Below are positions 39,413 to 40,046 of a DNA stretch of 43,064 bases, piece after piece (the stretch's first letter is position 1; each line of letters opens with the position of its first letter). This DNA is from Burkholderiales bacterium (lineage in GTDB: Bacteria > Pseudomonadota > Gammaproteobacteria > Burkholderiales > Burkholderiaceae_C), in assembly GCA_005789825.1 (NCBI GenBank), contig SXWY01000139.1:1-43064 (forward strand). The letters run 5' to 3'. The notes under the pieces were generated by a model, which saw nothing but the letters and a program-made list of their open reading frames with translations, made no database searches and had not been told where the DNA came from. The position numbers were made by a program, and so were the translations under genes.

Positions 39413-39444
39413 CCTTTAGAGAATTCGCAAGAGTTGGGGGTGAA

Positions 39445-39497
39445 CGAGAAAACCCGCATTATGGCCTTGATTGGCGCGGGTTTCCCCGTGATTCTCG
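39445..39497 (-). promoter_or_regulatory. Structured leader upstream of the BMP gene
   Basis: CGAGAA+AACCCGC paired with GCGGGTT+TTCTCG around an 18-nt loop, with a 9-nt bulge; ~33 nt upstream of ATG 39412. Confidence 0.5.
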
Positions 39498-39587
39498 GCC
39501 AATAAGCGCAATTCATGCTGCGAGTCACGCGATTTTGCGGTTGTGCGCCTGCTTCTGCTGACTTTTTTTCATGTCTGTATGCGTTTG

Positions 39588-39692
39588 CGCCATGCTGGCT
39601 CGGTTACTTGTGCTTTGACGTGAGGTCACTTGTGTTGTGACGCGAGGTCACTTGTGTTGTGACGCGAGGTGCTCACGCCATGCCGGCTCGGT
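39588..39692. repeat. Three 22-bp tandem repeats (39606-39671) flanked by a 17-bp direct repeat (39588-39604 / 39676-39692)
   Basis: acttgtgctttgacgtgaggtc / acttgtgttgtgacgcgaggtc / acttgtgttgtgacgcgaggtg; flanks cgccatgctggctcggt and cgccatgccggctcggt. Confidence 0.9.
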
Positions 39693-39794
39693 CGCCGCTC
39701 ACTGCAGCAAAGCTGCAATGTTCGCGTCGGCCCGACCGCCATGTCGGTCATCCACCCGTACTGTTTCACTCAAGCAAAGCAGTCACGATGAAAT

Positions 39795-39900
39795 AAGTTG
39801 CACGTTTACCCAAAACATCAGTCGGGCCGTCTGTGCGGGGATGTTTTTGCCAGCGAAAGCGCAGCAAAAAGCATACCGGCGCGGACGGTCATGCCAATGA
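39795..39900. repeat. Palindromic repeat element copy A (~106 bp)
   Basis: aagttgcacgtttacc...ggccgtctgtgcggggatgtttttgccagcgaaagcgcagcaaaaagcataccggcgcggacggtcatgccaatga. Confidence 0.9.
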
Positions 39901-39909
39901 TTCATCACG

Positions 39910-40014
39910 AAGTTACACGTGTACCAACAGCAACTCGACAGGCCGTCTGTGCGGGGATGTTTTTGCCAGCGAAAGCGCAGCGATGCATACCGGCGCGGAC
40001 GGTCATGCCAATGA
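39910..40014. repeat. Palindromic repeat element copy B (~105 bp)
   Basis: aagttacacgtgtacc...ggccgtctgtgcggggatgtttttgccagcgaaagcgcagcgatgcataccggcgcggacggtcatgccaatga; core identical to copy A except aaaaa versus gat. Confidence 0.9.
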
Positions 40015-40046
40015 CTTTCTGCAACGCTTACAAAGCAGCAAAGAAG

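Follow-up and report, generated by a model that had tools for sequence, protein, structure and literature searches.

The occurrence of two long, nearly identical palindromes inside a bacterial transporter operon raises the question of whether they belong to that operon or are local representatives of something more widely dispersed. The window in which they lie, i.e., the whole 43,064-nucleotide stretch that was analysed (G000:C123), is part of a 2.1-Mb draft genome of 193 contigs. Here, a minus-strand operon encodes, in order, an ABC ATPase (as judged from its translation), two BPD_transp_2 permeases and a BMP/PnrA-like binding lipoprotein; it is a nucleoside-type transporter operon. Both palindromes lie in the 634-nt gap between the second permease gene on the upstream side (PF02653; 40047..40967, minus strand) and the gene for the substrate-binding lipoprotein downstream (PF02608; 38267..39412, minus strand). 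Most of the Limnohabitans sampled have only 31-49 nt here, and members of the subclade considered below have 100-634 nt; in the window operon it is the repeats that have widened it. The stretch just upstream of the lipoprotein gene (39413-39500; atcaaggccataatgcgg) is conserved in close relatives (the orthologues L171-L176) whatever fills the gap, and could be a putative promoter of that gene, in which case the repeats may sit between the permease and a resident promoter. Any effect of the repeats on the relative expression of the permease and the lipoprotein would be secondary and is, on the sequence evidence, hypothetical.

The two palindromes, which we term P, are direct repeats of each other, and both are recovered by covariance-model matches. 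Copy A (type IIa; 39819..39902, plus strand, the match spanning 39819-39902) is a long imperfect hairpin with a T5/A5 tract and a conserved apex, AGCGAAAGCGCAG, supported by folding and by the conservation of its pairs. Copy B (type IIb; 39935..40016, plus strand) has an orthologous single copy at the same operon position in the relative G077, and its left extension (39903..39934, plus strand; aagttacacgtgtacc...) resembles the aagttgcacgtttacc that precedes copy A. As an earlier sequence-only reading of this DNA had noticed, the left halves of 41 nt (39825-39865 and 39941-39981) and the right halves of 30 nt (39871-39900 and 39985-40014) are each 100% identical between the copies, with a linker of AAAAA in A and GAT in B, and the GC-GAAA-GC apex fold it had drawn is the predicted structure of the plus strand (RNA z-scores of -2.87 for A and -2.05 for B; DNA fold z-score of A, -4.36). 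On the complementary strand the fold is weaker (-36.7 kcal/mol for A, -32.6 kcal/mol for B), in the case of B no better than shuffles (z +0.84). Because the operon is on the minus strand, its mRNA carries the complement of P and the GCGAAAGC apex is absent from it; the role in mRNA stability or differential expression that had been envisaged for this apex is hence weakened, the well-folding strand being antisense to the operon. The two repeats of about 106 bp that were originally delineated (39795-40014) are real, but their extent was drawn too small: the segment 39666-39800 is also repeated in the genome and belongs to the same composite.

This additional segment centers on a second conserved imperfect hairpin, the module M2 (39666..39765), which folds best on the strand opposite to P, i.e., the minus strand, as supported by copies in the window genome and in others, by folding (DNA fold z-score of -3.48 on the minus strand vs -0.49 on the plus strand) and by compensatory changes in its tip. 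The preference for the strand opposite to P holds in 37 of 39 M2 copies. To its left, a tandem array with 3.1 copies of a 22-nt unit (GGTCACTTGTGTTGTGACGCGA; 39602..39670, plus strand) forms the left edge of the composite; to its right, the spacer leading to copy A (the M2-IIa block; 39766..39818, plus strand) is common to copies in the contigs C124 and C166, as an alignment of composites shows, and in both contigs the M2 match continues to 39800. The full composite of about 300 nt comprises M2, a variable spacer, P and then tail units (CGGATGGGTCGGCCAAGCGTGTCTTC in type I and GGCGGCCATGCCAATGACTT in type II), which are often iterated toward the next gene; left-hand units are also iterated. 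In most copies the distance from M2 to the P apex downstream of it is 141-219 nt, with constant order and orientation; contigs C166 and C124 display M2-P-M2-P arrays, while P and M2 are also found singly and partial M2 matches extend to more distant species (e.g., G007 and G022). The idea that M2 and P are diverged copies of one unit was rejected, as their similarity is not above that of shuffles. So was that of an autonomous element between them: in the one case with 1.2 kb separating M2 and P (L200, G068:C2, 1851-3093) there is no evident transposase. That interval holds a small lipoprotein-like ORF (MNRLTVVLLALLPSLWGCS..., read by eye). Separately, the end of contig C162 and the start of C136 (G000; L008, L006, L012) overlap, and joining them would bring two inverted type II hairpins to within 200 nt of each other, which suggests that the assembly broke at a type II repeat here.

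A covariance model finds 14 copies of P in the window genome, and 62 distinct copies were curated overall, far more than chance would give; in 10 genomes of one Limnohabitans subclade the total is about 71. In the window genome, blastn recovers further copies in contigs C124, C166, C136 and C162, and copies of a second form, type I (GGCCGAATCGGAGGGGGCGTTTTTTTCGAGCGAAAGCGCAGAAAAAAATCGCACCGGATGGTTCGGCC), in C14, C79, C44 and C21; type II, the form seen in the window, differs from it in the arms and has the same AGCGAAAGCGCAG apex. An exact pattern for the P core finds it in 9 genomes of a 61-genome sample of the genus, and wherever the permease was found, the P-bearing genomes are those with the permease closest to that of the window (91-98% identity). 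Similarly, 52 of 53 stretches from a named collection come from MAGs labelled Comamonadaceae, Burkholderiales/Burkholderiaceae, Limnohabitans or Betaproteobacteria; the remaining one (L148, a Paenibacillaceae MAG) has the apex and lacks the conserved arms, and was set aside as a chance hairpin. A covariance-model search of 201 genomes across the family gave convincing matches only in the window genome, the sole match outside the genus (G095, E 1e-4) looking like a different hairpin. The locus of this weak match in that other genus (L209, G095:C2 42839-42924) is an intergenic hairpin after a stop codon with a similar TGCGCTTTCGCA apex, and may represent a separate palindromic family. No match to P emerged from phage, plasmid and viral collections at the sensitivity used. 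The sequence-only reading had proposed a REP/MITE-like dispersed element, and had made this contingent on the existence of other copies and of compensatory substitutions preserving the stem; both are seen, with many copies in the window genome and in related ones and changes that keep the stem. A search of a literature library returned no paper linking Limnohabitans with ‘repetitive extragenic palindromic’, the sole match for palindromic and intergenic being unrelated, and the P family is seemingly previously undescribed.

The hairpin, which occupies columns 9-76 of our alignment (A1) and is about 65-70 nt long, is supported by covariation. Across 40 aligned copies, 97.0% of the pair cells are standard pairs, as against 28-36% when the partners are slid by 1-3 columns, and in 8 of the 20 pairs both partners have changed. 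A covariation score of 0.313 compares with 0.131 in shuffled alignments, none of 500 shuffles reaching the former; the relatedness of the copies is retained in the slid-partner controls and is uncontrolled in the shuffles. The wobble pairs are strand-specific (84 G-U vs 7 A-C cells), each of the 40 copies folds better on the P strand than on the opposite one, and the apex sequence is nearly invariant.

As to what might have moved such a unit, the sequence-only reading had pointed to a REP-type Y1 transposase. The window genome has one detectable gene of this kind, a RAYT (Y1_Tnp; L071, G000:C77, 854-2108), which is flanked by a different REP, AATTGGGGTCAGGTTCCAATT (AATTGGGGTCAG(N4)CCAATT), and by neither P nor M2; the candidacy of these as the terminal repeats of the resident RAYT was therefore rejected, those positions being occupied by the other REP. 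The same REP-RAYT-REP layout is seen in G006, G036 and G068, and similar inverted repeats flank the RAYT of G003. The REP of the RAYT recurs just 5′ of M2, at 1-39 nt from its edge, in 18 of the 62 M2 copies whose edge is readable. Its orientation there never varies; the 18 cases are not independent, as several are orthologous. None was seen within 400 nt downstream of P. REPs of this type number only about 2-41 per whole genome and are also present in species devoid of P, just as RAYT genes are found in 47 of the 61 genomes sampled from the genus, P being absent from most of these. The anticipated transposase link is only indirect: a RAYT exists and its REP recurs beside M2, but that RAYT is flanked by another REP and RAYTs are common in species lacking the palindrome. 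The REP-M2 adjacency is an association rather than a proof of mobilization.

The genomic distribution of P is distinctly skewed. Among 41 copies classifiable by context, 24 are in convergent gaps, 16 in tandem gaps and 1 in a divergent gap, with genes called by a simple ORF rule and leaving out copies inside ORF calls, which are mostly short (about 340-420 nt) and resemble shadow ORFs spanning the repeat. Since a circular genome has as many convergent as divergent gaps, the 24 vs 1 skew is marked, with the proviso that copies occupying a shared locus do not count as independent. In all, the 71 copies resolve into 22 loci, 14 of which are common to more than one genome. Since most loci are shared between genomes, most copies are old. 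The mean number of differences between P copies is 15.5 for the same locus in different genomes, 17.3 for different loci in the same genome and 21.6 otherwise, indicating that both locus and genome matter. At the permease-lipoprotein locus itself, a MAG from Umea has a complete type I composite, G077 a single type II copy, the window genome (G000) M2 and two type II copies, and G006 a REP with an apparent M2 fragment; the element is absent there in G008, G024, G036 and G068. That one species has type I where another has type II is best explained by homogenization between copies, re-insertion being a less favored alternative.

What emerges is a dispersed, structurally constrained, two-module repeat that is old within the subclade, and that avoids divergent (promoter-type) gaps, is retained at orthologous loci and combines a fixed order and orientation with strand asymmetry. 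We consider it likely that the palindromes of the window belong to a non-autonomous, REP/BIME-like family of mosaic repeats that is confined to a single Limnohabitans subclade, and that this family spread early and was then inherited in place. The probable route of the early spread in the subclade would be single-stranded DNA hairpins on which a RAYT-type tyrosine (HUH) transposase acted in trans; subsequently, the unit would have been inherited in place and extended by local duplication, its loci being homogenized by recombination or gene conversion, with selection perhaps tolerating the repeat at 3′ ends and in convergent gaps. Counting against this are the failure to identify a mobilizer (the only RAYT has a different REP), the lack of a noted GTAG/CGTC tag at the feet of P or M2, the absence of detectable homology between M2 and P, and a copy number (14) that is low for REPs. 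Moreover, neither a target-site duplication nor a clean empty site could be resolved (no duplication was seen at the orthologous permease-lipoprotein gaps, which are too diverged to align), and the sharing of most loci between species leaves current mobility hypothetical.

Several of the same observations could be accommodated by a conserved structured RNA or bidirectional 3′-end element, wherein one of two convergent transcripts would carry well-folded P and the opposing one well-folded M2, so that either mRNA would terminate in a strong hairpin that protects or processes its 3′ end or insulates the two genes. The persistence of the element at 14 orthologous loci, its covarying pairs with G-U exchange on a single strand, the folding of M2 and P on opposite strands, the 24 convergent copies vs 1 divergent and the nearly invariant apex would all fit such an element. 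Nevertheless, we regard it as unlikely, given that no Rfam family is matched (in gathering or E-value mode), a terminator scan finds none at P, close relatives have the same locus without the element, the mRNA of the window operon carries the poorly folding strand of P, and the arrays and truncated tail units resemble repeat turnover. More doubtful still is a specific form in which M2-P supplies the paired 3′-end structures of two convergent transcripts, with the AGCGAAAGCGCAG apex recognized by a dedicated protein and the copies held at orthologous sites and homogenized between loci. The conserved outer boundaries and the size of the composite (about 300 nt), with inverted ends that are loosely similar in the alignment (left TTCACGCCATGCC..., right ...GGCCAAAGCGTG), might alternatively be read as a MITE, i.e., a transposon remnant with weak terminal inverted repeats mobilized in the past by a DDE-type transposase. 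This seems improbable: the ends match only loosely, M2 and P are no more alike than shuffles, no target-site duplication was seen, no full-length element with a transposase was noticed (including in the 1.2-kb M2-P case), and P and M2 also occur alone. Finally, the two near-identical tandem copies might by themselves evoke an ordinary intergenic hairpin that happened to duplicate locally, in the window operon only, a notion that the dozens of dispersed copies in several species and the compensatory changes refute, leaving it a negligible probability.

The REP/BIME-like reading adds such a family in Betaproteobacteria, namely the freshwater Limnohabitans, and one that lends itself to comparison between species through its long untagged hairpin, its opposite-strand partner hairpin and its type switching at orthologous sites. 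If a RAYT mobilizes M2-P, the recognition of hairpins would reach past the short, tagged REPs; if the copies are homogenized in place, they would be a natural case of concerted evolution, with dispersed hairpins kept by compensatory changes.

How, then, does the family relate to known systems? No intrinsic terminator is present at P on either strand, the T run lying inside the stem; Rfam covariance models returned nothing relevant, and the RYYYAAC/GTTRRRY ends of integron attC sites were not seen in the alignment (by eye). ERICs are 127-bp imperfect palindromes, single and lacking an M2-like partner or tail arrays; compared by description only, P is like them a long intergenic imperfect palindrome common to related species and with no known mobilizer, and M2-P differs from them in its partner module and tail arrays. 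The RAYT-associated REP of the genus adjoins M2 in a fixed orientation, but differs from P and M2 in sequence and flanks the RAYT. With REPINs, in which two inverted REPs form a mobile doublet (PMC3116915), M2-P shares two hairpins of opposite sense at a limited distance within one unit; however, where a REPIN pairs one REP with its own inverted copy, M2 and P share no sequence homology above shuffles, have a long spacer between them (141-219 nt from M2 to the P apex) and come with no identified cognate RAYT. It resembles the CGTC-tagged and untagged REP-like families (PMC3733652) in being a palindromic repeat without an associated transposase gene, and families without conserved terminal motifs are also mentioned there; yet M2-P is longer and two-module, with a conserved apex instead of a tagged end.

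P is palindromic, dispersed and extragenic, as REPs are, but no unpaired GTAG/GTGG or CGTC tag is conserved at the hairpin foot of P or M2 (alignments read by eye), the hairpin exceeds the 20-40 nt of a REP unit, and it is the AATTGGGGTCAG REPs, rather than two inverted copies of P, that flank the single RAYT. As the tag, size and RAYT-flank features (PMC3733652, PMC2817692) are lacking, we class it as a REP-like family that is new and stands outside the tagged REP families. Unlike the E. coli REP/BIME, P is about 65-70 nt rather than 20-40 nt, has no noted GTAG tag, does not flank the resident RAYT, and is of low copy number and largely shared between species. In the manner of a BIME, the unit is a mosaic in which palindromic units alternate in orientation and are joined to other modules (M2 and P on opposite strands, in fixed order and in arrays). 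BIMEs are built from RAYT-related REPs; here a RAYT-type REP adjoins M2 in 18 of 62 copies, and P and M2 themselves differ from it in sequence. The thread that connects it to the E. coli REP/BIME (PMC2817692, PMC8266576) is one of dispersed, extragenic, imperfect hairpins that form several-module mosaics and local arrays, and that are strand-specific, with mismatches or bulges and compensatory changes.
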